From contig JAHBVV010000001.1 of NCBI GenBank assembly GCA_019637335.1, positions 62,001 through 126,000 of the forward strand: a stretch of DNA of 64,000 nt, in the 5' to 3' direction. The notes below the pieces were generated by a model that did no database searches, was not told the DNA's origin, and saw only the letters and a list, made by a program, of their open reading frames with translations. Shown one piece after another: positions 30,595 through 35,527 of this stretch (the stretch's first letter is position 1; every line of letters begins with the position of its first letter). Both the position numbers and the translations under genes were made by a program. Origin of the DNA: Candidatus Hydrogenedentota bacterium (lineage in GTDB: Bacteria > Hydrogenedentota > Hydrogenedentia > Hydrogenedentales > JAEUWI01).

Positions 30595-32562
30595 TCAGGG
30601 CGTTCCCGCCGCCATCGCGCCATGATCGGGGACGCCCGGGCGTTCGTACCAGCGCGCGAAGAATTGCGCCGCGGGCCCGGGGTACATCCCGCGCTTCACA
30701 TCCATCCACGTGCGCTGGTCGCCGACCGCGTAGTAGACCCACGTCTTCCCCTCGAACTCGATGAGCGCGGGATCCGACGCGTTGATGCCCTCGTCGAGCC
30801 CGCGCGGGGACAGCACCGGGTTCGCGGCGCTCAACTCCCAATGCTTCAGGTCCTTCGAGCGGGTGATGTAGGTCTCGAAGTAGTGCCTGGGCTTGCGGTT
30901 CTCCAGGTAGAGCACATAGTAATAACCGTCCGCGTAATGGATCTCGGGACACGCGGTGTAGCGGTTCGTTCCGAATGTCGCATCGGGGCGCTTCTCCCAC
31001 GTTTGCAGGTCCTGTGACACGGCGAATTTCGTGGTGAAGGCCGGGTAGTCCGGCGTATTGGATTCGTAGGCCAGCACGTAGCCGTCCGGCCCCTTACAGA
31101 GGCTGCTGTTGAACAGGTGCTCGTTTTCCTGCGCGATGATCACCCGCTTCTCCCACGTTTCGAGATCCTTCGACGAGAACAGCGTCACGTCGTTCCAGTT
31201 CGCGTCCTCGTAGCGCGAGGCGACGGCGTAGAACGTGTCGCCGTCGACGAAGGGGCTGGCGAGGCCGTAGCCCTCGGCGAAACGAGCGACGGGGGTATTG
31301 GTCCGCGCGTCGCGCAGTTCGAGCCAGTAATCCTCCCGCGTACCGCCGCTCCCCGGGCGCACGGCGGCCATATGCATCAGCTTGCCCCGCCAGACGAAGG
31401 GCGACATCTCGCACATGTCCTTCTGCACGAGCGCGACGTCCTGAAGGCCGTGATCCGGCGCGGGGATTTCCGGCGGCGCGATGCGGGCGAAGAGATCGGC
31501 GGGCCACTGCTGGAGGCGGTAGAAGCCCTCGGGCGCCTCCTGCTGGAACTGCACATAGGCCTGGACGTTGCCGGTCGTGGTGTATTGGATATCCCCCTCG
31601 GTTTCCTTGTTCACGCGCACGCCGAAAACCTTGTAGCCCATGACCACGCTATCTTCAAGATCCACGTGCAGCAGTTTGCCCTGCTCCACGCTCTGTATCG
31701 CCCCGTCGATCGGCGTGCCGTGCGGTTGCGAAAAGTTCAACGCGACCAGCGTGCAGTTCTTGAGCTGGATGCGCATACTCGTGTCGAAGCCGAAGTTGCC
31801 CGCCTTCACCGCGCACTGCGGGCTGGCCATGGTGCAGTCTTCAAAAATAATGTCCGGGCGGTCTGGCATGGTCTCGTTCTCGACGCGCACGTACGCCGCG
31901 GCGGTGTCACCCCACCAGTCGAGCGCCCAGAGCTGCGTGCGGCGGAACGTGATCGGCTCGCCATCGCGCGAGAGGCAGCTCGCCACGCCGCCACCGAACG
32001 CGCGGCCGATCCCCACGGAATCCTCGACGATAATGCTGAACGGCTCCACCCGGTTCGTGTTGTCCCAGAAGAGCCCGCCGTCCCCGCCCGTGGCGTAGAG
32101 GTGGCGCAGTTTCCACCGGTCCCAGATCACCGCCGAAAAGGTCGGGTCCTTGTGCTCTTCCGACCAGCCCTCCTGGTTCGATCGGATGTTGCCGTGCCAG
32201 TCGTAGCTCTTGAAGCCCTTGTTCGGGTCGCCCGCGTCCAGGATCACCCAGCCGGCGCGCCCGCCTCCATGCGACCCGTCAAAATCCCCGATGATCTCGT
32301 TGTAGGCGCCTTCCGCGCCGCGGTGCGCCGGCGAAAGCATGGATTCCATATACGTATCGGGCCGCACGATGATCCGGTGGCCGCCCCGGTCGTCCGGGAT
32401 GGCGTCCAGCGCCGCCTGGACAGTCGTGAACGCCGTTGCCCACGTCGTGCCCCCCGCGTCGTTGCCGAGCTTGGAAACATAGAACGTTTCGGCGGGCGCG
32501 GGGGCCGCAATCAGCGGAGCGGCGAACAGCAGGGCGACGAAAAACGGGGCGCGTGGCAACAT
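30595..32562 (-). CDS. Secreted two-domain protein: beta-helix-like plus GH43-like propeller
   Basis: An exported 655-residue protein with a signal peptide (about 1-23). The N-terminal half (about 24-345) starts FYVSKLGNDAGGTTWATAF, the typical opening of right-handed beta-helix/pectate-lyase-like proteins. The C-terminal half (about 365-640) has repeated SSKDLETWEKR, SQDLQTWEKR and SKDLKHWELS blocks, as in five-bladed propeller glycosidases (GH43/GH32-like folds). Substrate and activity cannot be read from the sequence, but polysaccharide breakdown is a fair inference. AGGAG precedes the ATG (minus strand). It is divergent from queE, with 114 bp between them. Confidence 0.8.
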   Translation of the reverse strand: MLPRAPFFVALLFAAPLIAAPAPAETFYVSKLGNDAGGTTWATAFTTVQAALDAIPDDRGGHRIIVRPDTYMESMLSPAHRGAEGAYNEIIGDFDGSHGGGRAGWVILDAGDPNKGFKSYDWHGNIRSNQEGWSEEHKDPTFSAVIWDRWKLRHLYATGGDGGLFWDNTNRVEPFSIIVEDSVGIGRAFGGGVASCLSRDGEPITFRRTQLWALDWWGDTAAAYVRVENETMPDRPDIIFEDCTMASPQCAVKAGNFGFDTSMRIQLKNCTLVALNFSQPHGTPIDGAIQSVEQGKLLHVDLEDSVVMGYKVFGVRVNKETEGDIQYTTTGNVQAYVQFQQEAPEGFYRLQQWPADLFARIAPPEIPAPDHGLQDVALVQKDMCEMSPFVWRGKLMHMAAVRPGSGGTREDYWLELRDARTNTPVARFAEGYGLASPFVDGDTFYAVASRYEDANWNDVTLFSSKDLETWEKRVIIAQENEHLFNSSLCKGPDGYVLAYESNTPDYPAFTTKFAVSQDLQTWEKRPDATFGTNRYTACPEIHYADGYYYVLYLENRKPRHYFETYITRSKDLKHWELSAANPVLSPRGLDEGINASDPALIEFEGKTWVYYAVGDQRTWMDVKRGMYPGPAAQFFARWYERPGVPDHGAMAAGTP

Positions 32563-32676
32563 GGAAGGCTCCTGTCGGTGTTGTTTTCCCGACGCCATGA
32601 TAGCGCATTCGGCGCCCTGATTGTAGAACGCGGAAATAGGCGCGGCGCTCCGGCAGCGTGTACAATAAGGGGCAGC

Positions 32677-33393
32677 GTGTCCCGACGATTCAAAACCCCG
32701 GTACGAACCGTGTCCATCTCTACCATCGATAGCCGCCTGGCGGAACAGGTCCGCCTGAGCGAGATTTACTTCAGCGTCCAGGGCGAGAGCACCTGGGCCG
32801 GGCTGCCGTGCGTTTTCGTGCGCCTGGCGCGGTGCAATCTGCGCTGCCGCTGGTGCGACACGGCGTTCAGCTTCTACGGCGGTGAGAAGCGGCCAATCGC
32901 GGAGGTGCTTGCGGCGGTGGCGTCCTATGGTGCGCCGCTGGTGGAGATCACAGGCGGTGAACCGCTCGCGCAGAAGACCTGCGTCCCGCTGGCGGAGCTG
33001 CTGGTGGAGGCGGGGTATACGGTGCTTGTGGAGACGAGCGGATCCCTGCCCATCAACACCCTGCCGGATGCGGCGATCCGCATTATGGACCTGAAATGCC
33101 CCGACAGCGACATGAGCGCGCACAACGACTGGTCCAATATTGAGTACCTGAGGGCGGATCGCGACGAAGTGAAGTTCGTTATCGCGAGCCGTCGGGATTA
33201 CGAATGGAGCCGGGATGCCGTCAGGCGGTATAATCTCGAAAAGCGTTGCAGGGCCGTGCTGTTCTCGCCGGTCTTCGGGGACATCGAACCAAAAGACATC
33301 GTGGCGTGGATGCTGGAAGACGGCCTGAACGCGGTGCGGTTCCAGTTGCAGATGCACAAGTTCATCTGGCCGCCCGACGCCCGGGGCGTCTGA
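32677..33393 (+). CDS. queE: 7-carboxy-7-deazaguanine synthase (radical SAM)
   Basis: Radical SAM enzyme converting CPH4 to 7-carboxy-7-deazaguanine in queuosine precursor synthesis, 238 residues. It has the cluster motif CNLRCRWC (CX3CX2C variant, about 59-66), the SVQGEST entry loop, and EITGGEPL for SAM binding. GTG 32677 is chosen because AAGGGG lies 4 bases upstream; GTG 32710 is a later possible start without a ribosome site. TACAAT at 32661-32666 could be a -10 box. queD-like and queF genes follow on the same strand. Confidence 0.92.
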   Translation: MSRRFKTPVRTVSISTIDSRLAEQVRLSEIYFSVQGESTWAGLPCVFVRLARCNLRCRWCDTAFSFYGGEKRPIAEVLAAVASYGAPLVEITGGEPLAQKTCVPLAELLVEAGYTVLVETSGSLPINTLPDAAIRIMDLKCPDSDMSAHNDWSNIEYLRADRDEVKFVIASRRDYEWSRDAVRRYNLEKRCRAVLFSPVFGDIEPKDIVAWMLEDGLNAVRFQLQMHKFIWPPDARGV

Positions 33394-33422: not shown

Positions 33423-34124
33423 GTGGAAGCCCATCTGACGAAAATCGCGTATGTAGAGGCGGCGCACCGCAACCCCCGCGGCGGGGAAAAGCAGCAGCGG
33501 CTTCACGGCCACAGCTACAAGGTGGAGATCCTGGCGCGCGGCGGGCTCAACCCCGAAATCGGGTGGATCGTGGACTACGCGGAGCTGAAAAACCTGTTTC
33601 GCCCGCTCTATGACACGCTCGATCACGCGTGCCTGAACGACGTGCCGGGCCTGGAGAACGACACGACGGTTTCCGCGCTGGAACGGTGGATTGACGAGCG
33701 GATCGATCCGAAGCCGCCCTGGTACGCCGGGGTGCGTGTGTCGATCGACGGCGATCTGGCCTTTGCGCCGGTGCGCCTGCCCGCCAATCCCTTCGAGAAA
33801 CTGCCCGAGCGGATCCAGTTCAGCTTCGAGGCCGCCCAGGCGCTGCCCCAGCTGCCCGCCGCGCACCCCTGCCACTGTGTCCACGGGCACAGCTACCGTT
33901 TCGAGGTCGGCGCGGCGGACCTGGACGCGCTCGAACCGCACCTGCGCGCCATGTACGACCTCCTGGATCACACGTACCTCAACGAAATTCCCGGGCTCGA
34001 ATGCGCCACCTGCGAGCGCATCTGCGGCTGGGTCTGGCGGCGGCTGGAGGAGGCGGGCCAGCGCCCGGCGGCGGTGGTCGTTCAGGAGACCTACACGGCG
34101 CGCTGCGTCTACTTTGGCGAATAA
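33423..34124 (+). CDS. Tandem QueD/PTPS-like protein with split catalytic residues
   Basis: A 233-residue protein made of two 6-pyruvoyl-tetrahydropterin synthase (QueD) folds in tandem; single-domain QueD has about 120 residues. The first half has zinc ligands His15, His28 and His30 (AAH ... HGHSYKVE) and LDHACLND, but Gln24 stands where the catalytic Cys is expected. The second half has Cys150, His154 and His156 (CHCVHGHSYRFE) and LDHTYLNE, but Gln139 replaces the first zinc His. It sits between queE and queF, so it probably makes CPH4 for QueE. How the halves share the active site is unknown. Confidence 0.88.
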   Translation: MEAHLTKIAYVEAAHRNPRGGEKQQRLHGHSYKVEILARGGLNPEIGWIVDYAELKNLFRPLYDTLDHACLNDVPGLENDTTVSALERWIDERIDPKPPWYAGVRVSIDGDLAFAPVRLPANPFEKLPERIQFSFEAAQALPQLPAAHPCHCVHGHSYRFEVGAADLDALEPHLRAMYDLLDHTYLNEIPGLECATCERICGWVWRRLEEAGQRPAAVVVQETYTARCVYFGE

Positions 34125-34145: not shown

Positions 34146-34595
34146 ATGGCGCAACCCACGCCCGCGAAAGAACAGTTCAAGGCGGAAGACAAGATGCTCC
34201 CCTTCAAGGGGCCGGAGGCGATCGAATCGCACCTGCTGGAGTGTTTTCCGTATGAATACGCGGATAAGCCCTACGGCCAGGCGATGGAGATCGAGACGGC
34301 CACGGACGAGTTCACGTCGGTGTGCCCGTTTTCCGGGCTGCCGGATTTCGCGGTGGTGAACATCACGTACGTGCCCGACCGGCTCTGCCTGGAACTGCGC
34401 GCCTTGAAATACTACCTGCTCTCCTACCGCGACGTGGGCATCTGGTACGAACACCTGGTGAACCGCATGCTCGAGGATCTCGTGCGGGCGTGCCAGCCGC
34501 GTTCGATGCGCATCGAGATCGCCTGCAACCCGCGCGGCGGCCTTTCCAGCACCGTCACGGCCGCCTACGACAAGGCCGGCATGGGCGAGATCTAG
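34146..34595 (+). CDS. queF: NADPH-dependent 7-cyano-7-deazaguanine reductase
   Basis: Reduces preQ0 to preQ1, the last free-base step of the pathway; 149 residues, the short type I form. The catalytic Cys lies in EFTSVCPFSGLPDFA (about 56-70), followed by the conserved ELRALKYYLLSYRD (about 88-101) and HLVNRMLEDLV. The start is ATG 34146, 21 bases after the QueD-like gene. It is convergent with queC, with 10 bases between the stop codons. Confidence 0.95.
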   Translation: MAQPTPAKEQFKAEDKMLPFKGPEAIESHLLECFPYEYADKPYGQAMEIETATDEFTSVCPFSGLPDFAVVNITYVPDRLCLELRALKYYLLSYRDVGIWYEHLVNRMLEDLVRACQPRSMRIEIACNPRGGLSSTVTAAYDKAGMGEI

Positions 34596-34605
34596 GAACG
34601 GGCTG

Positions 34606-35292
34606 TCAGCCGTAGGGCAGCGGGTCCGTCGCGCCGCAATCGCGGAACGCGTTCAACCGCTCCACGCAGGTGGGGCAGGTCCCGCAGGCGCTTCCGCCGC
34701 CGCGGTAGCAGCTCCACGTTTCGCTGAAATCGACCCCGAGCCGCCGCCCGAGTTCGACGATTTCCCGCTTGGACTTTTCCACGAACGGCGCGTGGATCCG
34801 CACCGGCTTCTTCCGGTTGAGCGCGAGCACGTCATTAATCCGGCGTAGAAAGTCGCGCGTGCAATCCCAGTACCCGTATTCGTCCTGGGCCTGCGCGCCG
34901 TAGTATACGTCGGCCATGCCGTGCGCCTCGGCGAAGGCGGCGGCCATGGAGAGAAGCATCATGTTGCGATTGGGCACGTAGGTCGGCGGCTGGGAACGAT
35001 CATCCTCGGACAGATCCGCCAGGTCCGGTACGGCCGCGCCCCCTTCGATGAGCGCGGAACCGGCCTGGATCAGCGCGCCCATGAAGGTGATATCCATGAC
35101 GCGGTGTCCCGCGGCGCCCGCCAGGCGCGCCTGCACGGCCGCGCAGGCGAGCTCGCGGCTGTGGCGCTGGCCATAGTTGAAGCTGAGCGCGTGCGCCGCC
35201 GGGCACTCCAGATTGCGGACGACATGGTGCAGCAGAACCGAGGAATCAAGGCCGCCGCTCAGCAGCACGACGACCGGCCGTGTTTGCAACAT
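34606..35292 (-). CDS. queC: 7-cyano-7-deazaguanine synthase
   Basis: ATP-dependent enzyme converting 7-carboxy-7-deazaguanine to preQ0, 228 residues. The PP-loop LLSGGLDSSVLLH lies at about 10-22, and a C-terminal zinc site is made by CYRGGGSACGTCPTC (about 196-210). GAGAGG lies about 7 bases before the ATG at 35292. Together with queE, the tandem queD and queF it completes the steps from CPH4 precursor to preQ1 after GTP cyclohydrolase I, which is not in the window. It is encoded opposite to the other three genes. Confidence 0.95.
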   Translation of the reverse strand: MLQTRPVVVLLSGGLDSSVLLHHVVRNLECPAAHALSFNYGQRHSRELACAAVQARLAGAAGHRVMDITFMGALIQAGSALIEGGAAVPDLADLSEDDRSQPPTYVPNRNMMLLSMAAAFAEAHGMADVYYGAQAQDEYGYWDCTRDFLRRINDVLALNRKKPVRIHAPFVEKSKREIVELGRRLGVDFSETWSCYRGGGSACGTCPTCVERLNAFRDCGATDPLPYG

Positions 35293-35527
35293 GGAAATCC
35301 TCTCGTGCGCGCCGCCGGCCCGCCGGCATCGATTTGAGGGTGCGGCGTTATCAGGCTGCGGCCCGTTTGGGGTATACTCGTGCGAAATGTGGCCCGGCGG
35401 GACGTGGACCGGCCCGCGCCGGATGAATTCCGCCCGCACGTGGCCGCCCGGCAAGCATAGCAGAGACACGGGCCCAAACCCCATCCGGGTCTCCCCGGCC
35501 CCGCAACCAACCAGTGGAGCGATCTTA

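Follow-up and report, generated by a model that had tools for sequence, protein, structure and literature searches.

A two-domain QueD of Hydrogenedentota with complementary loss of active-site residues in its fused halves

QueD is the enzyme that makes the precursor of queuosine, a tRNA base. In E. coli QueD, His16, Cys27, His31 and His33 lie in one subunit segment; in rat PTPS the Cys and the zinc His residues come from one subunit and the Asp-His pair comes from its neighbor. The PTPS catalytic triad is described as intersubunit in the title of Burgisser 1995 (cited in PMC2229834), and PMC7546909 places the PTPS sites among three adjacent monomers. According to PMC10767420, mutation of any of the three zinc His residues of PTPS abolishes both metal and activity. 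The motif CxxxHGH is that of QueD/PTPS-I (PMC5041015). In bimodular QueF the C-module retains the catalytic Cys that the N-module no longer has, and the active site is interdomain (PMC5372742). No description of a two-domain QueD was found in the literature searched, which covered few subscription papers.

The window, a 64,000 nt stretch of a Candidatus Hydrogenedentota genome, contains an open reading frame whose translated sequence matches PF01242 (PTPS) at 2e-37 in two stretches of about 110 residues each (Table 1). The halves run singly give 7.7e-20 and 1.3e-16. The full-length tandem scores 118.8 bits with the QueD equivalog model TIGR03367 and thus passes the cut-off of 89.25, but the halves taken singly score 72.8 and 50.2 bits, which are both below it. 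The closest named relative is from a Candidatus Hydrogenedentota MAG (77% identity). By equivalog model, motif and operon the product is identified as a QueD.

Table 1. Positions in the window of the tandem queD gene, of its diagnostic residues and of the neighboring que genes
Feature	Position	Strand	Remarks
Tandem (bimodular) QueD, 233 aa	33423..34124	+	GTG start; PF01242 twice; TIGR03367 above cut-off
N-half T-fold domain, residues 1-118	33423..33776	+	His15/28/30, Asp67-His68, GWIVDY hairpin; lacks Cys and Glu
His15, first of the N-half zinc-type His residues (in the presumably non-catalytic site 2)	33465..33467	+	Kept, apart from f11 and a single f4 sequence
Gln24 at the N-half catalytic-Cys position	33492..33494	+	Cys in 0/55 tandems
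His28-Gly-His30, N-half zinc-type HGH	33504..33512	+	Kept except in f11
GWIVDY hairpin (Gly47-Tyr52), N-halves only	33561..33578	+	Gly47, Trp48, Asp51 55/55 in phylum; Trp position missing in every C-half
Asp67-His68, pair proposed to act in trans in catalysis at the C-half site	33621..33626	+	His68 55/55, Asp67 54/55
C-half T-fold domain, residues 130-233	33810..34121	+	Gln139, His148, Cys150, His154, His156, Asp182-His183, Glu222; GWxxDF hairpin deleted
Gln139 at the first zinc-His position of the C-half	33837..33839	+	Column His or Gln only; one H-to-Q change on tree
His148, invariant among C-halves	33864..33866	+	55/55
Cys150, proposed catalytic Cys (CxxxHGH)	33870..33872	+	54/55
His154-Gly-His156, C-half metal ligands (predicted)	33882..33890	+	55/55
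Asp182-His183 of the C-half, dispensable	33966..33971	+	Lost in f11, genus g8, Streptomycetaceae
Glu222, substrate-anchoring Glu of the C-half	34086..34088	+	55/55
queE, 7-carboxy-7-deazaguanine synthase	32767..33393	+	TIGR04349 5.7e-75; under own cut-off, yet best match by far
queF, single-domain (unimodular) preQ1 synthase	34146..34595	+	TIGR03139 124.6 bits, above cut-off
queC, convergent	34606..35484	-	TIGR00364 181.5 bits, above cut-off

The tandem queD is situated between queE upstream and queF downstream in one operon, and queC follows. Linkage to queE, queC and queF is a hallmark of QueD and is kept in the relatives, where queE or queF adjoins the tandem gene in most loci, those of family f11 included. 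The source genome also encodes FolE, QueE, QueC, QueF, TGT and QueA. The preliminary description had allowed for an inactive protein with another queD elsewhere; no second PTPS-family gene was found above cut-off in the rest of the source genome, which is about 96% complete. The window pairs a single-domain QueF with a two-domain QueD, and E. coli displays the reverse, a bimodular QueF and a single-domain QueD. Beside the que operon, positions 30595-32589 (minus strand) encode a secreted-looking protein whose C-terminal part is similar to glycosyl hydrolase 43.

Two AlphaFold models of the tandem protein display two T-fold units, with mean pLDDT of 82.3 and 79.0. The N-half is modeled with strands at positions 2-15 and 28-38, helices at 52-66 and 83-93, and a strand at 101-108. 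The pTM values are 0.67 and 0.52 with alignment depth on one half each, and the interdomain orientation is unreliable. By Foldseek the first model matches QueD folds, among them E. coli QueD in the PDB, with a probability of 1.00 and a TM by target of about 0.75. Uricase and other tandem T-folds give a weak match over the full length (TM about 0.2, rmsd about 15).

The residues of the two halves are as the preliminary description had them. The N-half carries the three zinc-type His residues with Gln24 in place of the Cys, and the C-half carries Cys150, His154 and His156, its first zinc His being replaced by Gln139. The CxxxHGH motif reads Cys150-His-Cys-Val-His154-Gly-His156 in the C-half and is not present in the N-half. 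Neither half of the window protein therefore has three zinc His residues and the catalytic Cys together, since the C-half set is Gln139-His154-His156 and the His triad lies in the Cys-less N-half. Such a complete domain, which is one of the defining features of QueD, is found in relatives of families f4 and f165 and in Amycolatopsis. Asp-His pairs (Asp67-His68 and Asp182-His183) and a substrate Glu (Glu222) are present in the window protein. Beyond what had been described, the N-half lacks the Glu, the C-half lacks the hairpin, an Asp-His pair occurs in both halves, and Gln139 is common to a large clade.

A residue table was compiled for 55 tandem sequences, 51 from Hydrogenedentota and four from actinobacteria, and the losses are polar. 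The Cys is lost from all 55 N-halves and from one C-half, and the substrate-anchoring Glu from all 55 N-halves and no C-half. The second and third zinc His are missing from 17 and 13 N-halves respectively and from none of the C-halves. The opposite is seen for the residues that would face a neighbor. The hairpin Trp is lost from all 55 C-halves and no N-half, the hairpin Asp is kept in every N-half, the Asp of the Asp-His pair is lost in 12 C-halves and one N-half (a change of Asp to Glu), and the His of the pair is lost in 19 C-halves and never in an N-half. Invariant columns within the phylum include Gly47, Trp48, Asp51 and His68 in the N-half and His148, His154, His156, Glu198 and Glu222-Thr223 in the C-half; Asp67 and Cys150 sustain one change apiece. 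In one sequence of family f10 (L017, genome G021) an Arg is found at the Cys150 position of an otherwise intact tandem, which is either a sequencing error or a dead copy.

Each of these elements is present in at least 97% of 80 distinct single-domain QueDs, a sample mostly obtained with patterns for the Cys/HGH or the LN-I-GLxN stretch, so that its Cys and HGH columns are biased. Set against this retention, the absence of the Cys from 55 of 55 N-halves is not a chance pattern. The earlier suggestion that the losses are complementary and not random is borne out, and the pattern is conserved among the homologues collected. Single-domain QueD relatives without the Cys or the ET motif occur on a phage contig (L082, 1501-1851) and on a Tistrella plasmid (L087, 992-1378), where the gene lies between queE and queC. 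A viral relative found by way of the linker region (L096) proved to be an unrelated protein with one short peptide in common.

The N-half zinc triad and the C-half Asp-His pair are both kept in 35 tandems and both lost in 17, with three mixed cases, as is expected if they form one dispensable site. An independent-pairs test of this co-loss yields three pairs, two concordant and none discordant, and the sign test is non-significant with so few events. The argument therefore rests on the polarity of the losses and on their independent repetition.

Among 62 Hydrogenedentota genomes of at least 80% completeness, PTPS was found in 58, with two matches per open reading frame save for genes cut by contig ends, and no free-standing QueD was found in these genomes. 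Four genomes of family f5 (G024, G036, G044 and G046) show no detectable QueD; QueC is present in three of them and TGT in all four, and gaps in the assemblies, reliance on salvage or an unrelated substitute could account for the absence. In the phylogenetic tree the N-halves form one clade (100/99) and the C-halves another (99/90), which points to a single duplication that on this phylogeny is ancient and phylum-wide. In a wider sample the tandem is also found in one family (f165) of another phylum. Its halves cluster with the Hydrogenedentota halves and its sister family has a single-domain QueD, thus horizontal transfer of the f165 tandem (L180, L193-L198) is likely.

Stages of decay can be read from living relatives: the Cys, the Glu and the hairpin went first and the remainder of the dead site later. 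In f4, part of f5, and f165 the C-half has all catalytic residues and the N-half lacks the Cys and the Glu. The clade of the window protein (f1-f3, f7-f10 and part of f5) is set apart from this stage by the change H139Q, which has a single origin on the tree (clade support 99/97) and is accompanied in the C-half by replacement of Lys149, mostly by Pro, by loss of Cys224 and by a change of Ala221 to Gln. Family f11 is nested within this clade and has lost the N-half zinc His residues and the C-half Asp-His as well, and genus g8 of f5 has lost the His of the C-half pair alone.

Tandem QueDs are also found on plasmids of Amycolatopsis, Embleya and two Streptomyces. The Amycolatopsis sequence represents the first stage, with an N-half that has the three His residues and Asp-His but lacks the Cys and the Glu, and a C-half that is complete except for the hairpin. 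Streptomyces and Embleya represent a late stage in which the N-half keeps Asp-His and the hairpin with a broken zinc site, and the C-half keeps the three His residues, the Cys and the Glu with a broken Asp-His. The halves of the actinobacterial tandems cluster with actinobacterial single-domain QueDs. A shared origin with the Hydrogenedentota tandems was rejected when grouping of the N-halves was forced (p-AU 0.002). As judged from these sequences, the same division of labor between halves evolved twice, independently. At two actinobacterial loci examined, the tandem gene adjoins queE with queC or folE nearby. Actinobacterial plasmids (L089, 5881-8837; L076, 3900-6900) carry deazapurine cassettes of tandem QueD, QueE, QueC or FolE, and nucleoside enzymes.

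We consider it probable that the protein is a bimodular QueD in which two fused T-folds jointly build a single functional 6-carboxytetrahydropterin synthase site in each chain. The zinc His residues and the Cys of PTPS share one segment and Asp-His comes from the neighbor, thus the comparison to be made is of the N-half Asp-His with the metal residues, Cys and Glu of the C-half. The C-half would supply His154 and His156 for the metal, with Gln139 replacing the first His, and likewise Cys150 for catalysis and Glu222 to anchor the substrate. Across the domain interface, the N-half would contribute the pair Asp67-His68 and its GWIVDY hairpin. This site, termed site 1, would be the one retained nearly everywhere. 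Site 2 would consist of the N-half His15, His28 and His30 and the C-half Asp182-His183; its Cys and Glu would have disappeared early and its remaining residues would have been lost together afterwards, so that it would hold a non-catalytic metal at most and would have wholly decayed in some lineages. The N-half Asp-His stays where the N-half zinc site is wholly gone (f11, Streptomyces and Embleya), and the Cys, HGH and Glu of the C-half stay where the C-half Asp-His is gone. Since the window protein has Asp-His in both halves, the trans assignment of the C-half Cys with the N-half Asp-His rests, for this protein, on its relatives.

A single inter-half site had already been proposed in the preliminary description and remains the best explanation, but the division of residues proposed there, in which the three-His zinc site of the N-half meets Cys150 of the C-half, is unsupported and appears most improbable. 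It does fit the residues present in the window protein taken by itself, and the N-half His residues are almost strictly kept outside f11. However, all three His residues and the Cys occur together in the C-halves of f4, part of f5, f165 and Amycolatopsis, which are homologues of the kind that had been named as counting against the idea; f11 has no N-half zinc site and yet keeps the C-half Cys, HGH and Glu; and the QueD Cys falls inside the zinc-ligand segment of one subunit. These same complete C-halves, and the retention of Asp182-His183 in the window protein, would suit a C-half that is a self-sufficient QueD with homotypic sites among C-halves, the N-half being a mere scaffold. This is unlikely, as the C-half Asp-His is lost in f11, g8 and Streptomycetaceae while every N-half retains the His of its pair, and the GWxxDF hairpin is missing from all C-halves and present in all N-halves. 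Conservation of the neighbor-facing residues in the N-half thus argues against a scaffold. Homotypic rings (NNN and CCC) would also fail for f11 and Streptomyces if Asp-His comes from a neighbor in the same ring.

It may further be supposed that the tandem is no longer a CPH4 synthase, being degenerate or in another pterin role, with the queuosine precursor obtained by salvage. The first zinc His is changed to Gln, and PTPS mutants in these His residues lose metal and activity according to PMC10767420; L017 lacks Cys150, and in a few genomes QueC and TGT occur with no QueD found. We regard such a loss of function as very unlikely. The tandem is the sole PTPS in genomes with the remaining preQ1 pathway and stays in the que operon, the Cys, HGH, Glu and Asp-His are near-invariant, Gln139 is fixed with no drift, and CxxxHGH is the QueD/PTPS-I motif (PMC5041015). 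The tandem QueD is predicted instead to be an active CPH4 synthase.

As Gln139 has been invariant since its single origin, it is probably functional, and it is perhaps a metal ligand. The first zinc His is missing from both halves in 13 of 14 f11 sequences, therefore Gln139-His154-His156 is the sole candidate metal site there.

In the composite arrangement the N and C domains would alternate round the barrel. Such alternation is impossible in a ring of three, and either an even-numbered ring or contact across rings is therefore predicted, in distinction to the trimeric rings of ordinary QueD and PTPS. A more inclusive proposal is put forward tentatively and is somewhat doubtful as a whole: a class of bimodular QueDs with at least two fusion origins, in which each half gives one face of the site, the barrel is even-membered, and the metal of the window clade is held by Gln-His-His.

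The fusions constitute a natural and repeated experiment in which a symmetric enzyme of identical subunits is turned into an asymmetric one, and they show which half gives which side of the QueD site. They predict altered ring symmetry within the T-fold family and offer a test of whether Gln can stand in for a catalytic zinc His. They also caution that one motif or one half is a poor basis for judging such proteins.

With respect to known systems, the tandem protein shares with QueD/PTPS-I (TIGR03367; E. coli QueD, 4NTK) the domain family, the CxxxHGH and ET motifs, the operon and the pathway. Unlike these, it has two fused domains, of which the N-half lacks the Cys and the Glu and the C-half lacks the GWxxDF hairpin, and the window clade has Gln at the position of the first metal His. 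QueD2 of Acinetobacter (7V0F) is a QueD paralog with a weak match in sequence and fold, but its 200-aa chain matches as one domain. Mammalian PTPS displays a Zn-His3 site and, by the title of Burgisser 1995, an intersubunit triad; however it is a homohexamer of single domains with another product and a CxxxxxHGH motif. Urate oxidase and GTP cyclohydrolase IB have two T-fold units per chain and sites at interfaces, and PMC5138847 gives uricase interface sites and an even ring, but they show no sequence relation to the tandem QueD past the fold. Bimodular QueF of E. coli and V. cholerae is likewise a tandem T-fold with catalytic elements split between its domains, although it is another enzyme, a nitrile reductase, and the window's own QueF is single-domain. 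Two features of bimodular T-fold enzymes are found in the tandem QueD, which has two T-folds per chain and, across the family, catalytic elements split between them.
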